This document shows, in pieces, positions 7,121-30,050 of a DNA stretch of 64,000 bases. Source of the DNA: Microbacterium sp. (GTDB lineage: Bacteria > Actinomycetota > Actinomycetes > Actinomycetales > Microbacteriaceae); the NCBI GenBank assembly GCA_013823625.1, contig PNMM01000001.1, positions 310,001 through 374,000 of the forward strand. The letters are read 5' to 3'. The translations under genes were made by a program, and so were the position numbers. Every line of letters starts with the position of its first letter. Positions within the stretch are counted from its first letter, which is position 1. The notes below the pieces were generated by a model, which did not search any database, was not told where the DNA came from, and saw only the letters and a list, made by a program, of their open reading frames with translations.

Positions 7121-7663
7121 GTGGCTGTCAAGATTCGCCTCAAGCGCATGGGCAAGATCCGTGCGCCGTACTACCGCATCGTCGTCGCCGACTCGCGCAC
7201 CAAGCGCGACGGCCGTGCCATCGAAGAGATCGGCAAGTACCACCCGACGGAAGAGCCCTCGGTCATCGAGGTCAACTCTGAGCGTGCCCAGTACTGGCTG
7301 AGCGTCGGCGCACAGCCGAGCCCGCAGGTGCTCGCGCTGCTCAAGCTGACCGGCGACTGGGGCCAGTTCAAGGGCGACAAGAACGCCAAGAGCACCGTCA
7401 AGGTCGCCGAGCCCAAGGCTGCTTTTGCCATGGACGAGAAGAAGAAGCCCGTTCTCAAGCCCAAGGCTGAGAAGCCGGTTGCTGCCGAGAAGGCTCCTGC
7501 TGCCGAGGTCGCTGACGAGGCGCCCGCCGCCGAGGTCGTCGAGGAGGCCGTTGAGGCTGCCGTCGAGGCTCCTGCTGCCGAGGCCCCCGCTGAGGAAGCC
7601 GCTGCTGAGGCGCCTGCCGCTGACGAGGCCGCTGCTGAGAACACTGAGGCTGAGAAGGCCTAA
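7121..7663 (+). CDS. rpsP: 30S ribosomal protein S16 with long Ala/Glu-rich tail
   Basis: S16 binds 16S rRNA in the body of the small subunit. The first ~80 residues are a normal S16 ([20 protein letters not shown], then GKYHPT and LKLTGDW). The protein then continues for about 100 residues, ending in a low-complexity acidic tail of Ala, Glu, Pro and Val (AAE/APAAE units). Total length is 180 residues, about twice the bacterial norm. The GTG at 7121 follows GGAG by a few bases. It heads the rpsP-KH-rimM-trmD ribosome/tRNA maturation operon, and the next gene starts 5 bases after its stop. Confidence 0.96.
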
Positions 7664-7668
7664 CGACA

Positions 7669-7908
7669 GTGCTCGCTGACACGCTCGAACATCTCGTCAA
7701 GGGGATCGTCGATCACCCCGACGATGTTGCCGTTGTCGCGCAGAGCTCTGCTCGCGGCGAGGTCCTCGAGGTGCGTGTGCACCCCGAGGACCTCGGCCGC
7801 GTGATCGGTCGGGGTGGCCGCACCGCTAAAGCACTCCGTACGGTCATCTCGTCGCTCGCCGACGGCCGACGCGTGCGCGTCGACGTCGTCGACACCGACC
7901 AGCTTTGA
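7669..7908 (+). CDS. khpA: KH-domain RNA-binding protein (KhpA/YlqC family)
   Basis: A 79-residue single type-II KH domain with the RNA-contacting GxxG loop in GRVIGRGGRTAKALR (about residues 43-57). In Gram-positive bacteria KhpA pairs with KhpB and influences cell division and RNA metabolism; the same location between rpsP and rimM is conserved, which supports the identification. It starts with GTG 5 bases after rpsP and its stop overlaps the start of rimM (TTGA), so translation is probably coupled. Confidence 0.9.
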   Translation: MLADTLEHLVKGIVDHPDDVAVVAQSSARGEVLEVRVHPEDLGRVIGRGGRTAKALRTVISSLADGRRVRVDVVDTDQL

Positions 7909-8495
7909 GTACCCCGGCGCAGCAGCTGCGGGTCGGTCGGCTGACGAAAGCCCACGGCCTCAAGGGTGCACTCAAGCTCGAACTCTTTACCGACGACCCC
8001 GATAAGCGCTTTACGCCGGGGGCCGTCTTCACGCTGCAGGTGCCCACGAGTTCTCCGTGGCACGGCAAGACGCTGACGCTCGCCGAGTTGCGCTGGTACA
8101 ACGGTCAGCCCGTCGGCTTCTTCGAAGGAATCGCTGACCGCACGGGTGCCGAAAGCCTCGTCAAGGCGATTCTCTGGATCGACCAGCAGCCCGACGAGGC
8201 CGATGAACCCGACGCGTGGTACGACTTTCAGCTCGTGGGGCTGCGGGCCCTGCGCGATGACGTCGAGGTCGGCACGATCGTGCGCGTCGAGCACTTTCCG
8301 GCTCAAGACTTGCTTGTCATTGGCACGGGCGAGCGCGAGGTGCTCGTTCCCTTCGTGAACGCGATTGTGCCCGCCGTCGACATCGCCGCGGGCACCGTGA
8401 CGATCACACCGCCCGTCGGGCTGTTCGAAGACATCGCCGACGATGACATCCCGAACGGCGATGGCGCCGCGACCGACGACTCTGCCTCTGCCTAG
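7905..8495 (+). CDS. rimM: Ribosome maturation factor RimM
   Basis: RimM helps assemble the 30S head and interacts with S19. The 196-residue protein opens with [19 protein letters not shown], the RimM N-terminal beta-barrel signature, and has the PRC-barrel segment [11 protein letters not shown] (about 105-115), followed by [11 protein letters not shown]. The TTG start at 7905 overlaps the stop of the KH gene by four bases, and trmD starts 10 bases beyond. The C-terminus has a short acidic extension. Confidence 0.95.
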
Positions 8496-8505
8496 ACTGC
8501 ACACC

Positions 8506-9189
8506 GTGCGCCTCGACATCGTCACGATCTTTCCCGAGTTCTTCGGGGTGCTCGATGTGTCGCTGCTCGGTCGTGCTCGCGCGGCTGGAGTCATCGAGGT
8601 AGGAGTGCACGACCTGCGTGATCACACGCACGATCGGCACCGCACGGTTGATGACACTCCTTACGGCGGCGGCGCGGGCATGGTCATGAAGCCCGAGCCC
8701 TGGGGTGAGGCACTCGACGCACTCGTGACCCCGAACAGCGTGCTCATTGTGCCGAGCCCGGCCGGGCATCCGTTCACGCAAGCGATGGCTCGCGAGCTTG
8801 CTGAGCGCGAGCACCTCGTGTTTGCGTGCGGTCGCTACGAAGGCATCGACCAGCGGGTTGTCGAGCACTACTCTGGGCGCATAGACGTTCGTGTGGTGAG
8901 CATCGGCGACTATGTGCTGAACGGCGGGGAGGTGGCGACCATGGCAATGATTGAAGCGATCGGTCGCCTTGTGCCTGGAGTCATTGGTAATCCCGAAAGC
9001 CTGACCGAAGAGAGCCACGAAGACGGCCTGCTCGAATACCCGAGCTACACCAAGCCGCCGACCTGGCGTGACCTGACGGTGCCGCCCGTGCTGCTCAGCG
9101 GCAACCACGGTGCTGTTGCCGCATGGCGCCATGAGCAGCAACTCGAGCGCACGCGCGCCGTGCGGCCCGACCTCATCGAGGGACGATGA
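8506..9189 (+). CDS. trmD: tRNA (guanine-37 N1)-methyltransferase TrmD
   Basis: TrmD methylates G37 of tRNAs reading CNN codons and prevents +1 frameshifting. The 227-residue SPOUT protein opens with [12 protein letters not shown] and contains [29 protein letters not shown] and the knot loop [11 protein letters not shown], all TrmD-specific. The GTG at 8506 matches the family N-terminus; an earlier ATG would add residues not seen in the family. Its stop overlaps the start of a small membrane protein (ATGA). Confidence 0.96.
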
Positions 9190-9662
9190 TGGCGCGGCGC
9201 GAAGCGTTGACGGCCGGCGAACGCATCTGGGTGTGGTCGCAGCCGGCTCTCGCCGTTGTCGCCGCGCTCGCGGGTGCTGCCGCTTGGTACCTGCGACTGA
9301 CGGGCGACGTGAGTGCTCTGCCCACGTTGCAAGCCTTGATCACCGGAATGTTCGTCTTGCCCGGGCTCGCGCTCTCGCTCTCGATCAACCATGTCGCGGT
9401 CATGCTGCGCCGGCCCCCCATGCTCACGGTGGGCGAGAAGCTGCTGCTGATCATCGAGTTTGTTCTCGTTACCGCGGTTGTTGCGATCTCGCCGAGCGCT
9501 GACCTGCTGTTCTTGGGCTACCTGTTGTGGCCGTTGCTCATAGCGGCTGCGGCAACAGCCTTTGCGACCATGGTGTCGACGACCATTCGGTCTCGGCGCG
9601 CCGTGAGCCCTGATGTCGAGGCCGAGCGGTCGCTCGAGTCGGCGTCGGCCGGCGCCCTGTAG
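9186..9662 (+). CDS. Small membrane protein of unknown function
   Basis: A 158-residue protein with about four hydrophobic helices (residues ~20-37, ~50-65, ~84-100, ~107-127) and a charged C-terminal tail. I do not recognise a family. It overlaps the trmD stop by four bases (ATGA), so it is the last gene of the rpsP operon and translationally coupled to trmD. No catalytic motif is apparent. Confidence 0.75.
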
Positions 9663-19069: not shown

Positions 19070-19609
19070 GTGAGTCGGTGGGGAATCGATGACAATCGCA
19101 TCGCGGCGGCGCTCGCCGCCGTGCGACCGGATGGCGTTGGTGAGCGGTCGCTAGACGTTGATGACCGCGATGACCGCATCGATGATGAGCCGCGCGTGAT
19201 CGATGACCTCTTCGCGCGCGCAATCTGGTCGGTGCTCGTCGAGCCGGGCGATAGCACCGCGGGGGCTCTCATTGCGGCGGTGGGTGCGGTGACGGCCGCT
19301 CGCCTCGTGATCGACCGGGCGCCCGCGCAGACGATCAGCGACGCGACGCGCGGTGAGGTCACGACAGACGCGGCGACCAGCGGAGTGGCGCGGTGGATCG
19401 AGCGGCTACGCGCTAACGACGTGATGCGCAGCCTCGAGAGCGCTGCTCGATGTCGTGCGGTGATGGTTGTACCGGGCGATGCGCACTGGCCCGAGAGCCT
19501 CGATGCTCTGGGCGATAGTCCGCCCGTTCTGCTGTGGGCCCGGGGTGACACCGCGTTGCTTAGGCGGCCTGGGGATTGGCATAGCGCGGAGTTGAAGTGG
19601 GCGCTATAG
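19070..19609 (+). pseudogene. dprA: dprA, 5' fragment, interrupted by the inserted element
   Basis: The first ~165 codons of the DNA-processing protein DprA, starting with GTG immediately after comM. They hold the helical N-terminal domain and the lead-in to the Rossmann fold (VVPGDAHWPESLDALGDSPPVLLWARGDTALL). The homology stops at about base 19562, where VALVGARA-type sequence should follow; instead the frame runs into foreign sequence and ends at 19609. The missing part resumes, in the same orientation, at about 29214. A protein made from this fragment would lack the whole ssDNA- and RecA-binding core. Confidence 0.9.
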
Positions 19610-19846
19610 GAGTGACTCTTGGGCGGGTTCACCGTCCTTGGTCTAGGAGCCTGGTTGTTGCTCTTGAACAGGTGCGAAGTCGCTGATCATGCGCTGGGTG
19701 CGCGTTTGGAGGCCAGGTCTGTCTCGTCACTTACAAACCGGCGCAAATAGGTCTGCAATTACCAGCGGTCGCGGCCAGCCTGGAGGCGCGGGTCGATGTG
19801 GGAGTACGCCAATAGTGCGTTGGGATTTATCCGCAAGAATGAAGAC

Positions 19847-20914
19847 ATGAAAAACAAGACCGATCGGGAAGCCACCGGGAAGACTATTGGCTCGATGGTT
19901 GGGGCCGTGACCTTCGGCACGGTGATTGGCACTCTCGGCAATTCGTTTCAATTGAGCGCGAACGTCGTTGTCTCAATCGCGGCGGTTCTAGCGGTCGGCG
20001 CCGCTTTCTCTTCTTTTGTGACACCCGGTGGTTTCCTGCGTCGGCACCGCCGGCGAAACTGGCTGGCGCTGTCCTCATTGCTGATCTCATTCCTGCTTCC
20101 CTTGGCGGTGGCACTGACGTTCGGCGCGAGCGATGTCCTGCAGGTCCTCTTGCTTTCCGCAACTGCGGCAGTTGTGGTCGCTGTGCTACTGGTTGCGGGC
20201 TTTGGCACCGATTGGCCTTCGGCAGCACTAACTGCTGCAGTTACGGGGTTCGGCGTCGCGGTCTTGCTGCTCGGTGTCGCGTTCTTGGTGGACGGGCGGG
20301 TGCTGGGCGGTGTCGCGTTATTGCTGCTCGGTGTCGCGCTCTTGCTGCTCGGTGTCGCGTTCTTGGTGGACGGGCGGGTGCTGGGCGGTGTCGCGGTATT
20401 GCTGCTCGGTGTCGCGATATTGCTGGGCGGTGTCGCGTTCTTGGTGGACGGGCGGGTGCTGGGCGGTGTCGCGGTCTTGCTGCTCGGTGTCGCAGTCTTG
20501 CTGCTCGGTGTCGCGTTCTTGGTGGACGGGCAGGTGCTGTTCGGTGTCGCGTTCTTGCTGCAGGGTGTCGCGGCCTTGCTACTCGGTGTCGCGTTCTTGG
20601 TGGAAGGGCAGGTACTGGGCGGTGTCGCGGTCTTGCTGGGCGGTGTCGCGGTCTTGCTGCTCGGTGTCGCGGCCTTGGTGGACGGGCGAGTGCTGGGCGG
20701 TGTCGCGCTCTTGCTGGGCGGTGTCGCGTTTCTTTTGCTCGCTCTCACGGGCCTCTTGGGAGGACAGGTGGTCTTAGGTATCGCAGGCCTACTCGCCGGG
20801 GTTGCGTTCCTTCTGTTCGGTGTCGTGTTGCTGCAGGGAGAAGACGCTGGCGGGCACCGCCTCATTCGATCCGTGTTGTCGTACTTGGGGCGCCGACGCC
20901 CGTCAGCCAGTTAG
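19847..20914 (+). CDS. Membrane protein with six 26-residue GVAxLLL repeats
   Basis: About 355 residues. After a short charged N-terminus (MKNKTDREATGKT) there are hydrophobic helices near residues 15-60 and 75-125, a charged break (RRHRRR), and then a region of six near-identical 26-residue units, each GVAFLVD-GRVLG-GVAVLLL-GVAILLG in form. The units are built of heptads GVAxLLx, so the array may be very hydrophobic membrane-embedded helices. ATG 19847 is preferred; an in-frame GTG at 19796 is possible. It is the leftmost gene of the element. I recognise no function, and the near-identity of the repeats suggests recent duplication. Confidence 0.65.
   Translation: MKNKTDREATGKTIGSMVGAVTFGTVIGTLGNSFQLSANVVVSIAAVLAVGAAFSSFVTPGGFLRRHRRRNWLALSSLLISFLLPLAVALTFGASDVLQVLLLSATAAVVVAVLLVAGFGTDWPSAALTAAVTGFGVAVLLLGVAFLVDGRVLGGVALLLLGVALLLLGVAFLVDGRVLGGVAVLLLGVAILLGGVAFLVDGRVLGGVAVLLLGVAVLLLGVAFLVDGQVLFGVAFLLQGVAALLLGVAFLVEGQVLGGVAVLLGGVAVLLLGVAALVDGRVLGGVALLLGGVAFLLLALTGLLGGQVVLGIAGLLAGVAFLLFGVVLLQGEDAGGHRLIRSVLSYLGRRRPSAS
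20251..20745 (+). repeat. Six tandem copies of a 78-bp coding repeat
   Basis: The 26-residue protein units correspond to a 78-bp DNA period built on GGTGTCGCG-N-TTGCTG modules of 21 bp. Copies differ by few bases. Because 78 is divisible by three, two plus-strand frames stay open across the array. Confidence 0.9.
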
Positions 20915-21024
20915 GCGTAAATAACACAGCTACCATCGGCGCTGCGAGTCCAAGGCGAGGAATCACAGGGGTAGCTTTGGTGTTGGAGCTTGAGCCACGT
21001 CAAGCCTGGGGAGGACCTTCCGCA

Positions 21025-22137
21025 ATGGATCAACAGACCAATCACTCTGAAGTGATGGCCTTGAACGAAAAGGGTGTCTATACCTTCCGCATGGGGGAAC
21101 TCTTCTCGGGTCCCGGAGGTCTGGCAATTGGCGCGAGCTTGGCTTCAACTCAGGCTGGTCGGATCGTTCATCAGTGGGCGACTGACTACGACATGGACAC
21201 TTGTCGCACCTATGCCCTGAATGTGGCCGGCGACGAGAATGCTCCATCGGTCGTTCACGGCGACATTCGAACTCTTGACTATGAGGTGCTTGCGGCGTTG
21301 GGTCATATCGACGGGCTCTCGTTTGGTTTCCCCTGCAACGATTTCAGTGCTGTCGGAGAGCGGAAGGGATTCGATGGCGAATTCGGTCCGCTCTACACGT
21401 ATGGAGTTAAGGCCCTGAAACGATTTCGACCCTCTTGGTTCTTGGCCGAGAACGTTGGCGGAATTCGCGCTGACGGAGGTGCCACCCTGCGCCAGATTTT
21501 TGGAGACATGATCGCGGCGGGATACCGGATTTATCCGCACTACTACAAATTTGAAAAGTACGGCGTCCCGCAAGCGCGACACCGCATGATTGTGATCGGC
21601 GTGAGAGATGACTTGGATGTCGAGTACAAGGTTCCGAGCCCGGCGCCGTACTCGGACATCGACGTCAGTGCAGGGAGGGCGCTCGACGGGATCCCCGCTT
21701 GGGCGGCCAACCAGGAGTTCACACGTCAATCTTCAACAGTGATTGAGAGACTTGAGCACATACCGATGGGTGGTAACGCTTGGGTTGACTCAATGCCTGA
21801 GCACCTGCGAATCAACACCCAAACAAAGCTTTCGTCCATCTATCGTCGGCTCGATCCGAAGAAGCCCGCCTACACCGTGACAGGGTCAGGCGGAGGAGGG
21901 ACACACATCTATCACTGGACGGAGCCGCGAGCGCTTACCAACCGTGAACGAGCTCGCCTCCAAACTTTCCCAGACGACTTCGTCTTCAAGGGCACCAAGG
22001 AATCGGTTCGTAAACAGATTGGCATGGCAGTCCCACCCAAGGGCGCGAAGGTGATCTTCGAAGCGATCTTGAATAGCTTCGCTGGTGTCGGATACGAATC
22101 AGTGGAGCCGTCGCTCAACAACTACATTCCGAAGTAA
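21025..22137 (+). CDS. C5-cytosine DNA methyltransferase (Dcm family), modification subunit
   Basis: A 370-residue DNA cytosine-5 methyltransferase. Motif I GELFSGPGGLAIG (24-36) binds AdoMet, motif IV has the catalytic Cys104 in GFPCNDFSAVGER, motif VI is AENVGGIR (141-148), motif VIII QARHRMIVIGVR, and motifs IX-X are LTNRERARLQTFPDDF and GMAVPPKGAKVI. It should protect host DNA from the endonuclease encoded 32 bases downstream. ATG 21025 has a GGAGGA site eight or so bases upstream. The frame is open back through the repeat array to 20212, but that is an accident of the 78-bp repeats, not a fusion. Confidence 0.93.
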   Translation: MDQQTNHSEVMALNEKGVYTFRMGELFSGPGGLAIGASLASTQAGRIVHQWATDYDMDTCRTYALNVAGDENAPSVVHGDIRTLDYEVLAALGHIDGLSFGFPCNDFSAVGERKGFDGEFGPLYTYGVKALKRFRPSWFLAENVGGIRADGGATLRQIFGDMIAAGYRIYPHYYKFEKYGVPQARHRMIVIGVRDDLDVEYKVPSPAPYSDIDVSAGRALDGIPAWAANQEFTRQSSTVIERLEHIPMGGNAWVDSMPEHLRINTQTKLSSIYRRLDPKKPAYTVTGSGGGGTHIYHWTEPRALTNRERARLQTFPDDFVFKGTKESVRKQIGMAVPPKGAKVIFEAILNSFAGVGYESVEPSLNNYIPK

Positions 22138-22169
22138 CCAGACTGCGGACGTGAGGCTATCTTGAAGAG

Positions 22170-23735
22170 ATGGCCGCAACGAAGAACTACTGGATGGTCT
22201 CCAGACCACAGCGAAAGCTGTACCGATTGCCGCTGACAGTAGCGGCGTTGAATGAGGCAGCTGGTGAGGAACTTTGGAGTGGTAGCCGAGGTCGCCACAT
22301 TGCCTTCGAAGAGATTCTGGAACGTGAAGGAATCAAGCGTCGTGGTCGGAGGCGAGATGGAACCGGATCGGGTGGCAGGACGCATGCTGCCCTGGTCAGG
22401 AGTCTTGGATTCGCCTTCGATAGCGAAGAGACCGGAAAGCTCGAGCTGACACTTGCGGGACTCGCACTAGCAGAAGGCGATCGACCGATGGACCTGCTTC
22501 GGCATCAGGTCATGCGCTTTCAGTATCCGTCGCCCTACTCGCAATCGCAACAGGTGAAGATCGATCCAAAGTTCAAGGTTCGACCATTTGTATTGCTGCT
22601 TAGATTGCTCCTCGACCCAGATTTGGAGCGGAAGCTCACCCACGATGACGTAGCTCTGATTGTCATCTTTCATGGGACCGGCGACTCGGCCGCCGATGCG
22701 GTTAGGGTCGCCACCTTGATCAAGGAGTTCCGCTCGTCGGGAATCGATGAGGCGCAGTTTCTTGCAGACCACTGTAAGGAATCCGACACCTTCGCGAAGG
22801 CCCGTGCCAGGTTCAAGGACATCGCGAACACAGTGTTTAACTGGCTCGAAGTCACGGGAGTAGTAGAACGAGAGAAAGGCGCGGTGTTCGTTTCTGAGGG
22901 CGGTGCGGCTACGGCTCAGGCGCTCCTCGACCAGTACTCGAGCCTGCCACTGCTGAGGAACGCTGAGGAAACTGAGCGATTCCAGCGGTCCTATGGCCTT
23001 CCGCCTTGGAAGCAGAAAGACACTCGAAACCTAGCGGCCACACCATCGTTGTCACGCGCGGAGTTCGTCTTTAGGCAGGTCAACACAGTTATCACACGGT
23101 GGGCTCAGTCTGAGCTCTTGATTGAAGGTGCGACGCCCGAGATCGTCGCCCGTCTGGTCACGGAAACCCAGTTTGAACACCAAGAGGTGGAGACCGCGGC
23201 CAAGCAAATCCTAGGCACTGATCGGACCCTCGAGACCTATCTCTACAACTATCAGGCTCTTGTCTATTCGCAGAAGAGAGACGCGCCACGCGTCTTCGAA
23301 CAAGCCACGGCAGAGATCCTTAGGCAGGTCTTTGGGCTTGAAGCGGTGTGTGTTGGACAGTCGGGTCGTGAACCTGACGTGGTTGTCACTCAGCCCAATG
23401 AATGGCGGGGCATCATTGACACGAAGGCTTACAGCGGTGAGTACACACTCCCGTCGTCGCACGATCGAGCCATGCGAGAGTACGTGGAGCGATACTCGGC
23501 TACCCCTGGCGAAACCTTGCGTTTTTGGGCGTTCATCGCTGGTGCGATTTCCCGGGGGGCGGGCGCCAAAGCAACGTCGCTTTCCAGTCAGACCGGGATA
23601 CCGGGGGTTGTCGTTGGCATGCTTGCCTGGCTCCAGCTCATTCGCTTGGGTCAAGAGAAGAGAGTCGACGGCGAGCAATTGGCAGATTATCTGAGCAAAG
23701 GGGGCGAGCTGACCGTCGCCGACCTGAGCCAGTAA
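22170..23735 (+). CDS. Probable type II restriction endonuclease, AlwI/FokI-like cleavage domain
   Basis: A 521-residue protein. The C-terminal third has a PD-(D/E)xK site: REPDVVV (D403) and IIDTKAYSGEY (D417, K419), followed by a helix with MREYVERY. This is very close in wording to the FokI and AlwI cleavage domains (DTKAYSGGY, then a tyrosine-valine-glutamate helix). The N-terminal two thirds is charged and helical, with winged-helix-like stretches (residues ~60-240), as expected for site recognition. It begins 32 bases after the methyltransferase stop, forming a restriction-modification pair. Enzymes of this group are type IIS and cut outside asymmetric sites. The recognition sequence cannot be read from the protein. 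Confidence 0.82.
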   Translation: MAATKNYWMVSRPQRKLYRLPLTVAALNEAAGEELWSGSRGRHIAFEEILEREGIKRRGRRRDGTGSGGRTHAALVRSLGFAFDSEETGKLELTLAGLALAEGDRPMDLLRHQVMRFQYPSPYSQSQQVKIDPKFKVRPFVLLLRLLLDPDLERKLTHDDVALIVIFHGTGDSAADAVRVATLIKEFRSSGIDEAQFLADHCKESDTFAKARARFKDIANTVFNWLEVTGVVEREKGAVFVSEGGAATAQALLDQYSSLPLLRNAEETERFQRSYGLPPWKQKDTRNLAATPSLSRAEFVFRQVNTVITRWAQSELLIEGATPEIVARLVTETQFEHQEVETAAKQILGTDRTLETYLYNYQALVYSQKRDAPRVFEQATAEILRQVFGLEAVCVGQSGREPDVVVTQPNEWRGIIDTKAYSGEYTLPSSHDRAMREYVERYSATPGETLRFWAFIAGAISRGAGAKATSLSSQTGIPGVVVGMLAWLQLIRLGQEKRVDGEQLADYLSKGGELTVADLSQ

Positions 23736-23839
23736 GGTCGGCACCGCCGGGTCTGGAATCGACTCTTGCTCCGCAATGCCCACACATCTTTGGGCCAATT
23801 CAGGAGTCGAGTGTGTGGGCAGCGGGCGAAAGGCAAGCG

Positions 23840-23992
23840 CTAGCGCGTTGCCGAGATGGTCGACCCGTGCGGACCAGCGATTACGAGCACGTAGCATCGT
23901 CGGCACCACCACGCGGCGCCACGGGGGGCGCAACGGGTTAGGCAATTAGGACAGTTCGGGTCCGTCTCAAGGTATTGCAAGTCATCGTCCAT
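23840..23992 (-). CDS. Small zinc-ribbon protein, hypothetical
   Basis: A predicted 50-residue protein, opposite in direction to the endonuclease gene. It starts MDDDLQYLETDPN and has one Cys4 zinc ribbon, CPNCLTRC...WWCRRCY, a good match in layout to the modules of the large zinc-ribbon protein of the same element. An upstream in-frame start at 24058 is possible. It is short and unsupported by any recognised family, so it may not be a gene. Confidence 0.4.
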   Translation of the reverse strand: MDDDLQYLETDPNCPNCLTRCAPRGAAWWCRRCYVLVIAGPHGSTISATR

Positions 23993-24185
23993 AGGGCCAT
24001 GATCACCCTTTGCTTGCCATTGCTCCCTCAAACATCCACAGTCGACACCCAGTGTCACGACCTGCGATCAGTCAGTGACTTTCGAGCGCGAGGGGTTCGT
24101 CCCGGGCTCTATCTGTGCTTCCGGCTGGCCGATATCGGGCTTGCGCTTCAGTGGCCTCAACTGTGTTCTTGCCCAAGGCAGACGC

Positions 24186-24485
24186 CTAAGGGGAACGTTG
24201 CTTCTTCACTGTTCTTCGAAAGCTCGGCCCGGTCGAGAGTGACCTCGGTGAGCGGCTCCAGCTGAGCCACCCGAGTCGTCTCCAATGCACCGCCAGATGG
24301 TGGTGGAATGAGTAGGTCAAACGCTTGTCCGCAGTCCAGTCGATCGAAGTCTCTGCGAGGAGTGGTTCGAACAACTCCACGAAAGTCGGACCTCGTCCAT
24401 TCCGCTTACGAAATCGCGCGACCAGTATCGCGGCTTGCAAGGCAACTTCGGGCCCGTTAGTTAACTGCTCAAAGAGTGCCTTCAT
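24186..24485 (-). CDS. Small hypothetical protein of the element
   Basis: A predicted 99-residue basic protein starting MKALFEQLTNGPEVALQAAILVA-type sequence, then FRKRNGRGPTFVELFEPLL and a histidine-rich HHHLAVHWRRLGWLSWSRSPRSL stretch. The pattern of helix, short turn and W/R-rich segment looks like a small winged-helix DNA-binding protein, but I know no family. It sits between the restriction pair and the XRE regulator, on the minus strand. The longer frame to 24620 adds sequence that looks non-coding. Confidence 0.5.
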   Translation of the reverse strand: MKALFEQLTNGPEVALQAAILVARFRKRNGRGPTFVELFEPLLAETSIDWTADKRLTYSFHHHLAVHWRRLGWLSWSRSPRSLSTGPSFRRTVKKQRSP

Positions 24486-24712
24486 GTCGGGCGGAAAGCC
24501 CGAAACGTTGGCAACTTTGCCGCGACGACTTCCGATACTGGGCACGCGATTCCGTCTCGCAGTCTCTCTCGAGTCCGAACAAGAGTCGGCAACACGTGCG
24601 CCTCCGGCATTGAGTGCCACGGAGTGGGGGACTGAATCGTTGCGTATAGCCGTTGCGATTATGCCATACCAAATAGGCCACTTATTGATGACAAGTAGCT
24701 CAGGTTTGAGGG

Positions 24713-24991
24713 GTGTCTCGCAACGCGATCTCCGCTGAGGACTGGGCTAGCTATGCAGCCGAGCTTGGTCAGCGCCTGAATCGTGCCCGTGTGGCAGGTG
24801 GTTTGAGCCAGGAGGATGTCGCCTACGGCGCCGGTTTGAGCCGATACACCTACCAAAAGTTTGAGAAGGGCGAGTCGAGGCCAGGAACACCATCGAACCC
24901 GCATTTGCGGACTCTTCTTGCGATCGCTGGCGCCCTGGGCATCCCGCCGAGCGAGCTGCTTCCAGAGTGGAATCCGCCAGTTAAGCCGTGA
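24713..24991 (+). CDS. XRE-family helix-turn-helix regulator
   Basis: A 92-residue Cro/CI-type DNA-binding protein. The HTH lies about residues 18-60: LGQRLNRARVAGGLSQEDVAYGAGLSRYTYQKFEKGESRPG, followed by LRTLLAIAGALGIPPSELL, the usual dimer helix. Small XRE proteins next to restriction-modification genes often act as controller proteins that delay endonuclease expression; its position about 1 kb downstream of the endonuclease, same strand, fits only in part. GTG 24713 is the start. Confidence 0.82.
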   Translation: MSRNAISAEDWASYAAELGQRLNRARVAGGLSQEDVAYGAGLSRYTYQKFEKGESRPGTPSNPHLRTLLAIAGALGIPPSELLPEWNPPVKP

Positions 24992-25035
24992 TGGTGGGGG
25001 CCCTGCCCCTCGGTTGTTTCCGGCAGAGCGGGCGG

Positions 25036-27612
25036 CTAGGTTTCGAAGGATCCGTTCTCGCGCAACGCGCGACTGTACCTAGCGGGACTCGTACCAGCGG
25101 CCTCCGCCCACTTGCTTGCGGTGACCGCATCGATACCAGTGAGACGCGCAATCACTGGAGCCGGCAATTGTTGCGCGAGGTCAAGGAGCGCACCTGTGCG
25201 GTTCGGACGCGCATGTACCCCTAGTGTCCTCAATCGATCCGTGAGCGCGTCGGTTGAAATCGCTTCGTTGTGGCGTTGTCCTGGGAACAACCAGTAGCGC
25301 TCCGGTTCATCTGACAGGAACCGGGGCGCGTCTCTATGGGCTCGTGCGACCAAGGCGAGCTGACCAATGTCGCCGTCGAGCTCCAGTGGATCCGAACCCA
25401 GCCGAACAGTTACCTGACCGTCTTCCACATCGATGTCTGAGACGCGCAGGGTCCTTATTCGATGTACTCGAATGCCGTACAGCACTACTAGCACGCCGGC
25501 GAGTCGAGTTCGCGGATCTGTTTCTTTTTGGGCAAGCAGATGCCTGAGGAGCTCCCACCTGTCGTCTGCCGTTGAAGCTTGAAGCGACCATGTCCGCGTT
25601 GGTGTAGGCCTGATGCTTACACGAGCACAGTGCTGGCTGCTTGACGCCCACCTAAGGAAACCTGCGATGTTGCGCCTTTGCGGCAGTCCCTCCTCAAGCC
25701 ACCTGTCGACGAGGCTTTGGTCGAGAGTTGAAAAGCTTCTCGAGTTCAATGAGAGCCAATTCATTAGGTCGATGACGTTTCGTAACTCGCTGCGGCGCCA
25801 GGCGCATTGACTCAGAGTGACGGGTCGCCCAAGCTCCCTTAGTTCGCGGAGGGGGCGCCAGCGGGTGTACAAACCGAATACTCGGCGGTGGGTCGGATCG
25901 CTGATTGACTCGGCGGCCTCCGCACACCAACGTTCAAAGCGGACCAAGTTTTCGTCTCTGTCCGGCAACAGCCCGTGCGCGACCAGCAGAGACCTTACGG
26001 GCCCAACTTCTGCGTCGGTGCCGATTTCGTCGAGCATGTTATGGCTAAGTGGTCGGGGCGCGCCAAGCAATAGATTCAGCCGCGCGACAGTGCTCTTCCG
26101 CCGAAATGCTTGAAGCGTTCGACGTGCATCTGATGCGAGCCAACTTTCACGGAATCGCATGAGCGAATCGTCTTGCGTGACGGCATCGTCCGGAAGTAGT
26201 TCCAAGATCTTCAGTCTTGCGTAACAGCGATCGCACCATTTGCGCCTGTGAAGAATTGACTGCGTCCCACACTCTCCACACGATTGCCACGCGAAAGGGC
26301 TCGAGCGGGAGCAGCGTTTGCACAGGGGGCCTTGGTCGGTTCGAAAGTGGACCCTGCTTGAACTGCCACAACTCACACAGGCTTCGATAACTGCCGGTGC
26401 GCACTTCCAGCAAACCTTCTCGGCCGTAGCCGCGTGTCTATTGAGGCGCGCTACTCGACCGCATTTCGGGCAACGCTCCTTACGAGTTGAGCAACTTGCG
26501 CATACAGCTTTGCCGGAACCGGCAAAGAGGCACTCCGATTCGAGACCGCAAATCGAACATGTGTCGATCCGACTTTGTGAGTAGCAGGCAAGGCAGATCG
26601 CGCTGTCAGATTCGGGAAACCGGCAGGTAGAAACAAGTCCGCACCTGCCGCAACGGTCCGTCCCGGTCGCTGATCGGCACCGCCCACACATGGGTCCATT
26701 CGCTGTATGGACGGCAATCAGCCTTCGCTTGTGGCATTGGAAGCAGTCGGCCCAGTAGCGGTCAAGTTTGTTAGTGCAGGACTGGCACAGTCTTGTTCCA
26801 TCTGGCTGACGAAGCTCAAGGCTCGCCATAGCGCCGCACCCATCACAGGTCTTCAAAGTGGCATCGCGGTAGCACATCCGGCAACACATCTGCCCGTGGA
26901 TGCGGTTAGTCAGTTTCTTCACTTGCCCGCATGGACCACAGGCAATCTCCGGCAGGGGCGCTCCACGTTCTCTAAGCGCCGTGTAGAGGCCCGCAAACAT
27001 TAGCGAGCTCTCGGCTGGGTTCTCGATCCACCGAGGGCCAAACAGTTCACACTCGAGTGAGAGTTTGAGACGGCGGCGGCCGTTCACCTGAAGTTCGGAG
27101 ATCACACTCCTCACCAGTTCGGGAGTGGAATCAGAAATGTGGGCTGAGATGAAGGCGGCAATGCGATTGTCAGATGTCGGGACCATCGCGCTCCAGCAAC
27201 TGCCGCAAAAGTCATGCTCGCCCACGGTCGCGGCCCGCGTCCGAATCTTGCGGCAACGCTGACAGGTGATCGAATTTGACCTCGACGCTAGAGCACAGCT
27301 AGCGCAGATGCGCATCTCGCCGGCTCTGCTTGGGAGTGAGACGACCCTACGACAGCGTCCGCACGCAGGGGCCTTCAAGGTGCACGCCCCTGCCGTCACA
27401 AGTGCGTACAGAATTCGTGCGAGCCCTGCGGACATTTCCGAAGTCCCACTTGTAAGCAGTCCGATGTCGCTCTCCAGCGCGGCGAGTATTCGGCGGCCTT
27501 GAGGTTCAAGGTTGACTACGCCCTCAACGGCTTCGTGAATCTTCTTCCTGCCCAGGCACGGCTCTACAACCTCGATTGCATCTACGACAAGCGCAATGAC
27601 GTCCTCACGCAT
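25036..27612 (-). CDS. Protein with ten tandem zinc ribbons and a degenerate tyrosine-recombinase-like C-terminal domain
   Basis: An 858-residue protein. Residues 84-463 hold ten consecutive CxxC...CxxC zinc ribbons (such as CGRC/CASC, CQRC/CGSC, CDGC/CQSC, CPKC/CWKC, CGEC/CDRC), with one non-ribbon block between the second and third. A helical region follows, then from about 700 a domain like the catalytic half of tyrosine recombinases: LVVLYGIRVHRIRTLRVSDID resembles the box I arginine segment. The later motifs are altered: ARPNRTGALLDLA where HxLRHTxAT is expected, and SKWAEAAG where the catalytic Tyr should be. I infer a non-catalytic, DNA- or protein-binding partner of the recombinase two genes upstream. 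ATG 27612 overlaps the end of the XRE gene by eight bases. Confidence 0.8.
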   Translation of the reverse strand: MREDVIALVVDAIEVVEPCLGRKKIHEAVEGVVNLEPQGRRILAALESDIGLLTSGTSEMSAGLARILYALVTAGACTLKAPACGRCRRVVSLPSRAGEMRICASCALASRSNSITCQRCRKIRTRAATVGEHDFCGSCWSAMVPTSDNRIAAFISAHISDSTPELVRSVISELQVNGRRRLKLSLECELFGPRWIENPAESSLMFAGLYTALRERGAPLPEIACGPCGQVKKLTNRIHGQMCCRMCYRDATLKTCDGCGAMASLELRQPDGTRLCQSCTNKLDRYWADCFQCHKRRLIAVHTANGPMCGRCRSATGTDRCGRCGLVSTCRFPESDSAICLACYSQSRIDTCSICGLESECLFAGSGKAVCASCSTRKERCPKCGRVARLNRHAATAEKVCWKCAPAVIEACVSCGSSSRVHFRTDQGPLCKRCSRSSPFAWQSCGECGTQSILHRRKWCDRCYARLKILELLPDDAVTQDDSLMRFRESWLASDARRTLQAFRRKSTVARLNLLLGAPRPLSHNMLDEIGTDAEVGPVRSLLVAHGLLPDRDENLVRFERWCAEAAESISDPTHRRVFGLYTRWRPLRELRELGRPVTLSQCAWRRSELRNVIDLMNWLSLNSRSFSTLDQSLVDRWLEEGLPQRRNIAGFLRWASSSQHCARVSIRPTPTRTWSLQASTADDRWELLRHLLAQKETDPRTRLAGVLVVLYGIRVHRIRTLRVSDIDVEDGQVTVRLGSDPLELDGDIGQLALVARAHRDAPRFLSDEPERYWLFPGQRHNEAISTDALTDRLRTLGVHARPNRTGALLDLAQQLPAPVIARLTGIDAVTASKWAEAAGTSPARYSRALRENGSFET

Positions 27613-27955
27613 CCGGCGAAATGACTCGCGCGCGTGGCGGCCGCAATCCCTTGTCACGTATGGCGGCGGTCCCGGTAATCGCCTTGTCGTCGCCACTTGT
27701 TCCGGTCGCTGCCACGGCCGCACCCAGGTTGACCTTGTGAATCAGGTCATCTGCGCTGCATTCGAAGATGTCCATGAGTGCAACTAGGACGTGCAAGTTG
27801 AGTCGTTCGGGCTTCTCAACAGCCAGGCGGTAAATCTGACTAGATGAGAGTTCAATACCGCGCTCTCTAAGCAGGGGCACCAACTTTGAAGTCGCGAAGA
27901 TTCCAGCTGACGCCATCACCTCGCGGAGCCTCCATTCGAACCCGATCGTCATCAT
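27605..27955 (-). CDS. Small XRE-type protein of the recombinase operon
   Basis: A 116-residue protein with a Cro/CI-like HTH in residues 1-75 (LREVMASAGIFATSKLVPLL, ELSSSQIYRLAVEKPERLNLHVLVALMDIFECSADDLIH), then a basic, disordered tail. The DDL ending of the HTH domain is typical of XRE proteins. It begins at the recombinase stop with a 4-base overlap (ATGA) and its stop overlaps the next start by eight bases (ATGCGTGA), so the three proteins are made from one transcript by coupled translation. It may control the operon or join a recombination complex. Confidence 0.85.
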   Translation of the reverse strand: MMTIGFEWRLREVMASAGIFATSKLVPLLRERGIELSSSQIYRLAVEKPERLNLHVLVALMDIFECSADDLIHKVNLGAAVAATGTSGDDKAITGTAAIRDKGLRPPRARVISPDA

Positions 27956-29073
27956 GTCTGCGGTTCCTTTCTGTCTGGGCTAAGCCGCGTAAGCGCATCC
28001 CGCAACATCTTGTTGGCGAAGTCTCCGGTGACGCTCGTGTAGATGGAAGTTGTGGAAGCGTGTCGGTGCCCCAACTGACTTTGCACGAACGTTGGATCGA
28101 CCCCTTCCTCGATCAAGTGCGTTGCATAGCTGTGGCGGAGCGCGTGCGGACTCAAGTTGCGGTCGAGGCCAAGTTCATCGCGGAAGTGAGCGAAGCGGTC
28201 GCTGAGCTCGCGAGATCTGAGACGGGTGCCGCGTTCCGAGTACCACATTGCGATTCCGTCTTTTGGGCTCATCAGCGGCCTTACGTTTGCCAAATAATCT
28301 TTGACGGCTTCCACGGCCCAGTCGCGCAAAGTCACAACAGAGCGCCGTTTGGGTGGGCCGCCTTTCGAGGCCTTGCCGTGTCGAACCTGAAGAATGCCGA
28401 ACTCACCGAACTCGGGGGCATGGGAGTTGCGATAGAAGTCAGACACATCTAGGTGGACTGCTTCGTTTGCGCGGAGACCCCAGGCGTAAACGACCCTCAA
28501 TAGAACGGCATCGCGATATGCGGGGAGCGCGCCTTTTCGTCCTTTTGCGATGCAGATGTCGACTTCCTGATCTGCCCGGTCAAACAGGAGTTGTAGCTCA
28601 TGTCTTGTTAAGGGACGGCGCCCGGGTCGGCCTTCGTAGTCTTGCAAGTGTCGAACGGTGTTCCAGGCATGACAGACCTGCACGGGATGAGTTCCGAATC
28701 TGCGTTCGCACTCTGAAACCCATCCGTAGTGCTCAGATGTCAGGTAATCCCCGAACAAGCGGATTGCCTGCTGGTAGCTACGGATCGTCGACGGGGCTAG
28801 ACGTCGAACTGAAACCAGGTCAAGCATCCACTCGTCGAACTGGGCCGCGGACCAGTTCCAAGGCCACTCTGCGCAGTGCTCTTGGAATTGCTTGACTGCT
28901 CGTAGACCTCCGCGAACGTATTCATCTCGCAGGTTGCGGCCACCCGTCTGCTGGGCGCGCCATCCCGCGAGCATCCCTTGGAAGACCGCTTCTTGCTCGT
29001 TCAGGAACGAGACGCCGGCGGCCAAGTAGAGCCCAGCGGCTCCATGTGGCACTGTCCTTGACCCCAAAAGCAT
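27952..29073 (-). CDS. Tyrosine recombinase/integrase of the element
   Basis: A 373-residue site-specific recombinase with every catalytic residue in place: R201 in GLRANEAVHLD, K234/K237 in RHGKASKGG, H310 and R313 in PHALRHSYATHL, H336 in LGHRHASTT and nucleophile Y345 in SIYTSV. An N-terminal SAM-like core-binding domain covers about residues 45-145. It should catalyse insertion and excision at the dprA target. ATG 29073 is chosen because upstream sequence to 29511 is antisense to dprA and to the attachment region. It is the promoter-proximal gene of the minus-strand trio and reads inwards from the right end. Confidence 0.92.
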   Translation of the reverse strand: MLLGSRTVPHGAAGLYLAAGVSFLNEQEAVFQGMLAGWRAQQTGGRNLRDEYVRGGLRAVKQFQEHCAEWPWNWSAAQFDEWMLDLVSVRRLAPSTIRSYQQAIRLFGDYLTSEHYGWVSECERRFGTHPVQVCHAWNTVRHLQDYEGRPGRRPLTRHELQLLFDRADQEVDICIAKGRKGALPAYRDAVLLRVVYAWGLRANEAVHLDVSDFYRNSHAPEFGEFGILQVRHGKASKGGPPKRRSVVTLRDWAVEAVKDYLANVRPLMSPKDGIAMWYSERGTRLRSRELSDRFAHFRDELGLDRNLSPHALRHSYATHLIEEGVDPTFVQSQLGHRHASTTSIYTSVTGDFANKMLRDALTRLSPDRKEPQT

Positions 29074-29078
29074 CCTCC

Positions 29079-29112
29079 CGTCAAATGCACATAATACGCG
29101 TTTAACGGGAAA
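29079..29112. other. Imperfect inverted repeat beside the recombinase gene, possible recombinase core site
   Basis: TCCCGTCAAATGC and GCGTTTAACGGGA face each other across an eight-base centre just upstream of the recombinase start. The size (about 13-bp arms, 6-8-bp centre) is that of tyrosine recombinase core sites. The right arm is repeated as ATCCGCGTTTAACGCGAAA at 29200-29218, at the boundary with dprA. It could equally be an operator of the recombinase promoter. Confidence 0.5.
29094..29112 (+). repeat. 19-bp imperfect direct repeat, inner copy
   Basis: ATACGCGTTTAACGGGAAA, matching the sequence at 29200-29218 at 17 of 19 positions. It lies 106 bp inside the right-hand boundary of the element. 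Confidence 0.7.
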
Positions 29113-29113
29113 A

Positions 29114-29139
29114 GTGGGTTTGGGGAGTCGGAAACCCAC
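29114..29139. other. Hairpin near the right end of the element
   Basis: An 8-bp inverted repeat GTGGGTTT / AAACCCAC with a ten-base loop lies between the two direct repeats. It may belong to the recombinase promoter region or attachment site. Confidence 0.4.
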
Positions 29140-29186
29140 CTGATCCCGCGATGGCCCCAGCAGCACTTCGTCCCTGATAATGAATA

Positions 29187-30050
29187 GTGACAAAACGCGA
29201 TCCGCGTTTAACGCGAAACAGCGCACTTGTCGCCATCGTGGGAGCCCGTGCGGCAACGGGATATGGCGAGCATGTGGCCATGGAGTTTGCTGCGGGCCTG
29301 TGTGCACGCGACGTCGTCGTGGTGTCGGGCGGCGCGTACGGCATCGACGGCATGGCACATCGCGCCGCGCTCGCGAGCGGCGGTGCCACCATCGCGGTGC
29401 TCGCCGGCGGCATCGATCGCATTTACCCGAGCGGCCACGAGGCGCTGTTGACGCGCGTTGCCGACCACGGCCTGCTGTTGTCGGAAATGCCCTGTGGAAC
29501 CGCGCCGACAAAGTGGCGTTTTCTTCAGCGCAATCGCCTGATTGCCGCGCTCGCGGCGGCGACGGTGGTTGTTGAGGCTGGGCGGCGTTCGGGCTCTCTC
29601 AACACCGCGGGGCACGCCATCACGATGGGTCGGCCCGTGGGTATCGTTCCCGGCCCGATCACGAGTGCGGCGAGCGCCGGGTGCCACGCGACCTTGCGCT
29701 CAGAGCCGGTCGAGTGTGTCACGAGCGTCGCCGAGATCATGCAGTTGGCGTTTGGAGCAGACGGGGTTCTCGAGATTCCTGATCCTCTCGAAGCCCAGCC
29801 GAGTCACGAGACCAACCCCGATGAGCCAGCCGCCGAGGTTGCTCTCGTGGTCGACCCCCTGCACCTCAGGGTGATCGATGCGCTGAGGCCCCGCCGGGGT
29901 CAGACTCCGGCCGAGGTAGCGCGGTCCGCGGGCGAAGCGGTTGACCGCATCCGCGGCGTGCTGGGGGTGCTCGAGCTCGAGGGCCATGCCACTCTCGGTG
30001 CTGACGGGCTCTGGCGGAGTGCGGGCTCCGCACCGAGATCGACGGGCTGA
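29187..30050 (+). pseudogene. dprA: dprA, 3' fragment with the Rossmann-fold core
   Basis: The rest of DprA in the original orientation. From about base 29217 it runs NSALVAIVGARAATGYGEHVA, GGAYGIDGMAHRAAL, GGIDRIYP, RNRLIAALAAATVVVEAG, SGSLNTAGHA and the C-terminal winged-helix DprA domain, to a normal stop. DprA needs this fold to bind single-stranded DNA and load RecA. A GTG at 29187, supplied by the insertion boundary, gives an open frame of 287 codons, so a separate product is possible but lacks the N-terminal domain and any clear ribosome site. Confidence 0.88.
29193..29218 (+). repeat. Outer direct repeat and inverted arms at the right dprA junction
   Basis: The outer copy of the 19-bp repeat (29200-29218) sits at the junction. 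It also contains two overlapping inverted pairs: AAACGCG-atc-CGCGTTT (29193-29209) and CGCGT-tta-ACGCG (29203-29215). The left dprA end carries the related ACCGCGTTGCTTA (19550-19562). These CGCGTT/AACGCG arms are the likely attachment-site arms. Confidence 0.55.

Follow-up and report, generated by a model that had tools for sequence, protein, structure and literature searches.

What moves the mobile element that interrupts dprA in a Microbacterium genome, and what chooses the place where it lands? The element lies in a window of 64,000 nucleotides (Microbacterium sp., contig PNMM01000001.1, positions 310,001 to 374,000) and carries an operon of three genes. They encode a tyrosine recombinase (Int), a small XRE protein and a large zinc-ribbon protein (ZnR, or P0001). 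With a probability of about 0.75, we read this trio as the integration module of a Tsy-like transposon, a type described by Faure et al. (2023, PMC10293859). One active recombinase would work with an XRE protein that sits on palindromes and with a catalytically dead ZnR that selects the target.

The three genes are tightly joined. The genes int and xre overlap by 4 bases (ATGA), xre and znr overlap by 8 bases (ATGCGTGA), and all three are open frames. An earlier reading, made from the letters alone (the sequence-only reading), had described one translation unit headed by a catalytically complete recombinase. Both points hold: the frames and overlaps are as stated, and Int carries the R-K-H-R-H-Y catalytic set, which is kept in 16/16 aligned Ints.

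ZnR looks like a dead tyrosine recombinase with a Cre/XerH-like C-terminal fold, as judged from a model, placed behind an array of zinc ribbons. It contains 20 CxxC motifs, that is, the ten consecutive Cys4 ribbons claimed before; in 2000 shuffles of its composition, CxxC motifs average 2.7 and never exceed 9. PF00589 matches the C-terminal region at E 5e-4, under the Pfam cut-off, and 8/28 ZnR relatives at E <= 0.1 (best 3.4e-6). An AlphaFold2 model of residues 505-895 has a mean predicted local distance difference test score (pLDDT) of 84.8 and a predicted template-modelling score (pTM) of 0.59. When structures are searched with this model, all 50 PDB rows listed, of 100 at E <= 10, are tyrosine recombinases, and Cre (E 6.6e-5) and XerH (E 7.0e-5) are the best matches. 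Where the viral structure rows listed carry a name, the match is to an integrase or to a protein with a recombinase domain. For the full-length model (pLDDT 76.2, pTM 0.38) the matches are mostly recombinases, together with low-probability LIM-domain proteins.

The catalytic residues are largely gone. We assigned the positions by eye against the recombinase consensus. Among 28 ZnR relatives the catalytic Tyr is kept in 0/28 (Trp in 18/28), the second His in 0/28, the HxxR His in 1/28, Lys in 0/28 and Arg I in 2/28; Arg II is kept in 27/28. The sequence-only reading had suspected a recombinase-like domain without the HxxR histidine and the tyrosine, and both the modelled fold and these counts bear it out; a structural match of the C-terminal domain to recombinases had been named beforehand as a check. 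Although the standard catalytic set is missing, Arg740 (28/28), Arg842 (27/28) and Tyr883 (28/28) are conserved (P0001 numbering).

The insertion into dprA is precise and leaves no target duplication. An uninterrupted dprA in another genome of the genus (G400, locus L036) provides the empty site, which confirms that a mobile element lies in dprA. The 5' part of the gene is 91.7% identical to it over 505 bases, and the alignment stops at 19574. The insertion point is a conserved codon, between ...RRPG and VAIVGAR. In the alignment with L036 the element ends show no target duplication or shared core beyond one base, a G common to both sides that makes the ends uncertain by 1 base pair (bp). G400 has no P0001 match, and 6/26 genomes of the genus, our own counted, match P0001 at E <= 0.001. 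Since our genome has one dprA match only, its dprA is interrupted. Among 24 other genomes of the genus with a match, 23 have a dprA frame of at least 414 amino acids, and the remaining one is cut by a contig edge. The guanine-cytosine content of the element is 0.586, compared to 0.66 and 0.672 in the flanks.

Linkage of the trio in other genomes had been named beforehand as a check, and it holds in both directions of search. We selected 44 loci (numbered with L) by ZnR, 40 sites from a genome survey and four plasmid loci. Int, XRE and ZnR occur together in 41 of them by tblastn; two of the others have ZnR only (L065, L086) and one has XRE and ZnR only (L077). Starting from Int, 80 genome-contig loci are among the matches listed, and at least 31 of these (L092-L122) were judged true relatives. 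The ZnR core lies downstream of Int in 27/31 of these true relatives among the matches listed; the exceptions are L092, which ends in its contig, and L111, L118 and L119, which have no ZnR. By profile, 78 Int open reading frames have ZnR beside them in 67 cases and XRE in 59. The count of 27/31 uses a relaxed distance rule, since the stop-to-stop frame of a partner can start inside int. As a control we took 50 generic recombinase loci, 49 of them Int-selected and one viral (L176), and 0/50 match XRE or are accompanied by a cysteine-rich recombinase. There, L134 has a weak core match without CxxC, and L139 has a cysteine-containing frame that looks unrelated.

The family is widespread. It is matched in 69/394 sampled genomes of the class (our own included) and in 237/72,556 plasmid records, 47 of which match 80% of the query at a single site. 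Phage records gave no match (0/50,697), and a phage origin was rejected on this ground. Of five loci on viral contigs, four are clearly related to Int, and one of these, L172, lies within a recombinase gene. A first scan of genome contigs with the single protein P0001 found no match. ZnR frames are broken or split in L061, L083, L102 and L114. In L122 (10436-12890) one open frame is matched by both the XRE and the ZnR profile, next to a broken Int frame, and may be a natural fusion. In an 11.3-kb stretch from the metagenome-assembled genome of a bog actinomycete (L095), the ZnR core is matched three times in succession over 11 kb, which looks like a tandem or nested arrangement of elements.

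The same target codons are hit repeatedly. Both elements in dprA (2/2: the window and L031, on a Pseudonocardia plasmid) split it at the same place within a base or two, and so do both elements in umuC (2/2: L032, L087). The umuC junctions are clean: umuC is split in plasmid pA8H1 and intact in pA2H2, where L089 is a natural empty site. We rejected L034 and L089 as insertions inside umuC; both lie behind umuD, and the 222 residues of umuC covered in L089 show no break. L033 adjoins the C-terminal part of an ATP-dependent ligase.

Other relatives lie in recombinase genes. By eye, L047, L048 and L049 are at the HxxR helix, and the inner element of L031, L053, L055, L056, L090, L093 and L172 are just past the catalytic Tyr codon. 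L058 lies, again by eye, within an ISL3 transposase gene. Pfam matches were obtained for 9/10 upstream frames tested, the exception being L050. Two near-identical 4.1-kb copies, made up of the trio only, have entered two recombinase genes that lie on separate contigs of one genome, with clean junctions. On the Pseudonocardia plasmid pPA12743CP (L031:3353-11622) a complete trio element lies within the Int gene of another, right past the catalytic Tyr codon. Hence trio elements can disarm each other.

A further target is dif. Using a dif consensus, we found a dif-like site (<= 6 mismatches) at most 400 bp upstream of int in 14/85 Int hits, compared to 0/75 control stretches. By eye, these sites lie at the element end, and 12 of the 14 have <= 2 mismatches. 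L071 and L116 belong to the same contig, and L109, with two trios, enters these counts twice. The upstream stretch of L175, where int is at the contig edge, was wrongly cut in the dif and palindrome counts; it is a dif miss among the 85. L109, from Nocardioides malaquae, has two oppositely oriented Int genes, both with a dif-like site upstream; its second trio is cut off at the edge of the stretch analysed. Some elements lie behind peptidase genes: Pfam identifies M23 in L061 and L099 and NlpC/P60 in L052, and likeness alone points to a peptidase in L050, L062, L064, L100 and L102. Altogether the family has at least six target kinds: dprA, umuC, a ligase gene, two sites in tyrosine recombinase genes, and dif.

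Two further neighbourhoods were seen. The int-side end of L085 adjoins an array of repeats (7650-9200; 20 copies, most spaced 61 bp) that resemble clustered regularly interspaced short palindromic repeats (CRISPR); a CRISPR-like neighbourhood seen by eye in L084 was not confirmed by the repeat finder. Three Streptomyces loci (L097, L098, L120) share a motif near CCGATGTNCCTACCGNCGCC ahead of the int-side end, and Nocardia L111 has a looser form.

The int-side ends of the elements and the int promoters share a palindrome. By eye, the ZnR-distal end of our element is an imperfect inverted copy of its int-side end. The int-side ends of the elements start with AAn or TTC and have a TTGCATCNGATGC-like palindrome about 12 nucleotides inward, and their far ends finish with CCAATC, CCTATA, CCGTTA, CCATTT or CCGGTT (all by eye). 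A palindrome is also found in the promoter (last 75 bp) of 57/85 Int hits, compared to 26/1700 shuffled windows. In 40 hits an end site accompanies a promoter site; 20 of them have two promoter sites, which are 20 bp apart in 19 cases. The end palindrome is closer to the promoter palindrome of the same element (mean distance 2.35) than to those of others (3.54), and 0/2000 shuffles were as low, relatedness not being allowed for. These similarities suggest that one protein, probably XRE, may bind both the promoter and the end palindromes. A scan of the int promoter for sigma-70 sites and terminators found nothing. We rejected a 6-bp footprint of the SE type at the far end, where the hexamer is, by eye, constant at different sites (CCGGTT in L047-L049, CCATTT in L055 and L056).

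How would such a trio work? As reported for Tsy, removing the recombinase YRec, the helix-turn-helix (HTH) protein or the zinc-finger protein TnsF impairs transposition, and TnsF binds and selects the target comM; in the Tn7-like Tn6022 an inactivated TnsF selects comM (PMC10293859). In our element Int, as the sole subunit with a complete active site, would cut and join DNA at both element ends. XRE on the promoter palindrome pair would autoregulate int, and XRE on the matching palindrome of the int-side end would help to assemble the recombination complex. The ribbon array of ZnR, together with its core-binding and catalytic-like domains, would recognise the target and bring the Int complex there, as TnsF does for Tn6022 and Tsy. 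The element would have jumped into the conserved dprA codon and may be mobile at present. We infer the reading of the target by the ribbons from TnsF and from the pattern of targets. The sequence-only reading had proposed a non-catalytic, DNA-reading subunit that chooses the dprA site. The non-catalytic recombinase fold with ribbons stands, and the DNA-reading role is kept as the most economical hypothesis.

Alternatively, ZnR could support Int structurally or set its directionality, as a counterpart of Tfp, GinC or TnpC, and the core-binding domain of Int would choose the target. SE and GInt elements, as summarised in PMC10214605, also have a recombinase-like subunit without RHRY. Target labels cluster almost equally on the two trees, whose row sets differ. 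They change 11 times on the Int tree (75 rows) and 10 times on the ZnR tree (66 rows); the minimum is 10, and shuffled labels need 25.1 and 22.7. Thus targets appear mostly stable within clades of either protein. However, the ZnR tree groups the seven elements that target the recombinase Tyr codon and leaves the transposase targeter L058 outside (100/96), whereas the Int tree places L058 inside with weak support (93/91). Furthermore, target sites are unlike the element ends by eye, and TnsF, which has the same plan, is reported to bind its target directly (PMC10293859). We consider a purely structural ZnR unlikely.

A second alternative keeps ZnR active through a rewired site made of Arg740, Arg842 and Tyr883. 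Int and ZnR would then both cut, as in ZooTsy, where the recombinase activities of both YRec and TnsF are reported as essential (PMC10293859). The three residues are conserved, as this alternative would have it. However, both His positions are lost, and the modelled Tyr883 lies on the last helix, past the nucleophile helix of known recombinases (helix assignment by eye); we regard a rewired site as very unlikely. It is scarcely credible that another event broke dprA and that the trio merely rides along, passive or decayed: some relatives are indeed decayed or partial, without ZnR or with broken frames (listed above), but the window genes are open, the termini are precise, a genome of the same genus has the empty site, and near-identical trio-only copies occur at two sites of one genome.

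Several observations weigh against ZnR as a dead target selector of a Tsy-like transposon. The recombinase assignment of ZnR draws on weak Pfam and PHROG matches and on a modelled fold. Template-modelling scores of the PDB matches are modest (0.25-0.46 by query length), hhalign gives no convincing match between the ZnR C-terminus and Int (E 0.46), and PDB sequence searches with ZnR return no recombinase better than E 0.8. The selector of ZooTsy is active and essential according to PMC10293859, and our ZnR has lost the residues for it. On both trees the clade of the window contains dprA, umuC, ligase and umuD-end targets side by side. Its two dprA elements are ungrouped on both trees, and its two umuC elements are ungrouped on the Int tree, only one of them having a ZnR row. 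No target is assigned to 35/75 Int rows. Finally, ribbon number goes with clade. Because it tracks phylogeny, its agreement with target class is no independent evidence.

This last point bears on a tentative extension of the Tsy-like reading. It is possible, though we hold it to be rather doubtful, that the ribbon array is a modular and evolvable DNA-reading head. Ribbons would be gained, lost and changed to retarget a constant single-recombinase transposon: three ribbons for dif, eight for the recombinase Tyr codon and nine to ten for dprA and umuC. CxxC motifs number 16 in 7/7 elements that target the recombinase Tyr codon and 5-6 in 10/10 distinct dif targeters with a counted array; the three-ribbon group includes members without a dif site. 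In the clade of the window the count is 17-20 (window 20, L032 20, outer element of L031 18, L034 18, L033 17). If the extension is true, insertion would be guided by a protein and free of target duplication, and the ribbon array could reveal, and perhaps set, the target.

Between the trio and the far end, the element carries cargo (see the table). The GVALLLLGVAFLVDGRVLG-like units of the membrane-protein candidate are encoded by internal repeats at window positions 20290-20750.

Table. Features of the element and of the interrupted gene, in window coordinates.
Feature	Position	Strand	Details
dprA 5' part	19070..19574	+	native sequence stops at about 19574; open reading frame continues to 19609 within the element
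Whole element	19575..29228	.	9654 bp; from comparison with the empty site in L036
ZnR-distal end	19575..19612	-	in int orientation finishes ...TATGCCAAT(C)|CCCAGG
Cargo open reading frame, probably membrane protein	19796..20914	+	372 amino acids; internal hydrophobic repeats, GVALLLLGVAFLVDGRVLG-like; no Pfam match
Cargo C5-cytosine DNA methyltransferase	21025..22137	+	PF00145 E 1.4e-62; PADLOC MTase_II 2.3e-102
Cargo type II restriction endonuclease, FokI-like cleavage domain	22170..23735	+	PF09254 7.2e-8; PADLOC REase_II 2.5e-33
Cargo small XRE protein resembling restriction control protein	24713..24991	+	PF01381 3e-10; PADLOC Control_protein 8.9e-8
ZnR protein (P0001)	27612-25036	-	858 amino acids from ATG at 27612; helical N-terminus, ten Cys4 ribbons, predicted tyrosine-recombinase fold
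XRE protein	27955-27605	-	116 amino acids; Cro/C1-type DNA-binding; PF13443 E 4.6e-9
Int	29073-27952	-	373 amino acids; PF00589 E 3e-26; catalytically complete tyrosine recombinase
Promoter-proximal palindrome TGCATTTGACGGG	29077..29089	-	int promoter
Second promoter palindrome CCCGTTAAACGCG	29097..29109	-	20 bp from first
Int-side-end palindrome CGCGTTAAACGCG	29203..29215	-	1 mismatch to the element's own promoter copy
dprA 3' part	29229..30050	+	PF02481 E 1.4e-59; protein shares 95% identity with its counterpart in genome G400

Which known system does the trio belong to? Tn554 inserts without target duplication and, like the trio, is a multi-protein recombinase transposon. It has two catalytic recombinases (TnpA, TnpB) and TnpC, whereas in the trio only Int keeps its active site. 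RIT elements have three recombinases, all with the catalytic Tyr; here the second gene encodes XRE and the third protein has no Tyr. The sequence-only reading was right to set the trio apart from both. The Gamma-mobile-trio (GMT) likewise consists of three genes, among them one for a tyrosine recombinase, and is a mobile module that carries defence cargo; it includes the proteins GmtX and GmtZ. GMT models match neither P0001 nor P0002, and Int gives only a distant recombinase match to GmtY (E 4.4e-8, 32.8 bits vs a cut-off of 340). In NCBIfam at E <= 0.1, P0002 has no family and P0001 has only XerA (E 0.012). The actinobacterial Tn554-like TBSSR pairs of Van Houdt, outlined in PMC3414803, have two recombinases with a catalytic motif; they were rejected as the same thing, the Int matches being weak. 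P0001 relatives were found in 0/3 Tn554-like carriers (pRHL2, pRHL3, FB24 plasmid 1), an empty result that alone shows little.

SE and GInt elements share with the trio an operon that includes a recombinase-like protein lacking RHRY (Tfp and GinC, respectively) and site specificity, as far as PMC10214605 and PMC5385486 set them out. In SE elements, too, the ends are imperfectly inverted, and the side proximal to int retains native bases of the target. However, the intA-tfp-intB-srap and ginABCD operons contain two RHRY recombinases and ours contains one, and the far-end 6 bp of SE are the footprint of the previous site, unlike the constant hexamer found here. Tn6022 resembles our element in its target selector, described as multiple zinc fingers with an inactivated recombinase domain, and differs in working with Tn7-type proteins such as TniQ (PMC10293859). 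Among the eight open reading frames of the element scanned with Pfam, NCBIfam and PADLOC, none matched tnsA, tnsB, tnsC or tniQ/tnsD.

The same trio has been seen before. Romaniuk et al. (2018, PMC6305408) report it as 'XER modules', possibly a novel type of integrative element, in the umuDC genes of plasmids from Antarctic Arthrobacter, and plasmids pA8H1 and pA2H2 carry our relatives L034, L087 and L089. The third protein is called XerC in that account, and ribbons, catalytic loss, exact termini and the wider spread are not part of it as far as it is represented here. The sequence-only reading had seen in the trio a candidate for an undescribed system, which is not supported: its gene order is known as Tsy (PMC10293859) and the trio itself as XER modules. 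We recognised no other description of an actinobacterial Tsy-like family in the open-licence literature, covered mostly by titles and abstract openings.

Tsy is the closest relative by gene plan and description. The order is the same: a complete tyrosine recombinase heads the operon, a small HTH protein stands in the middle, and a zinc-finger protein with recombinase domains, core-binding and catalytic in TnsF, serves as selector in Tsy and would do so here. Both insert at a conserved codon of a competence gene and carry cargo beyond the trio. The end upstream of the recombinase is 135 bp in Tsy and 155 bp in our element, and the far end is short. The reported circle joint of Tsy, ...AATCCCAGTC|AAGTTCTGAT, resembles the joint ...TATGCCAATC|AAGTGCGCTG that would be expected if our element passes through a circular intermediate (PMC10293859).

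There are also differences. Tsy inserts in comM, the one target reported for it, and our family in dprA and others; the main text of PMC10293859 mentions neither Actinobacteria nor dprA nor umuC. The GIY-YIG nuclease gene downstream in Tsy, reported as non-essential and missing in some relatives (PMC10293859), has no match among the eight frames of our element scanned with Pfam. The ends of our element show imperfect inverted similarity, the recombinase gene in the window adjoins the 3' rather than the 5' part of the target gene, and the hosts are actinobacterial. Since an active selector, insertion in comM and a GIY-YIG match are all lacking, the trio is not filed as Tsy proper. It follows the same plan with a dead selector, broader targets and a wide spread, and the family offers naturally occurring pairs of selector and target for working out protein-guided target choice. 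With it dprA joins comM as a competence gene broken by mobile elements, here linked with restriction-modification cargo.

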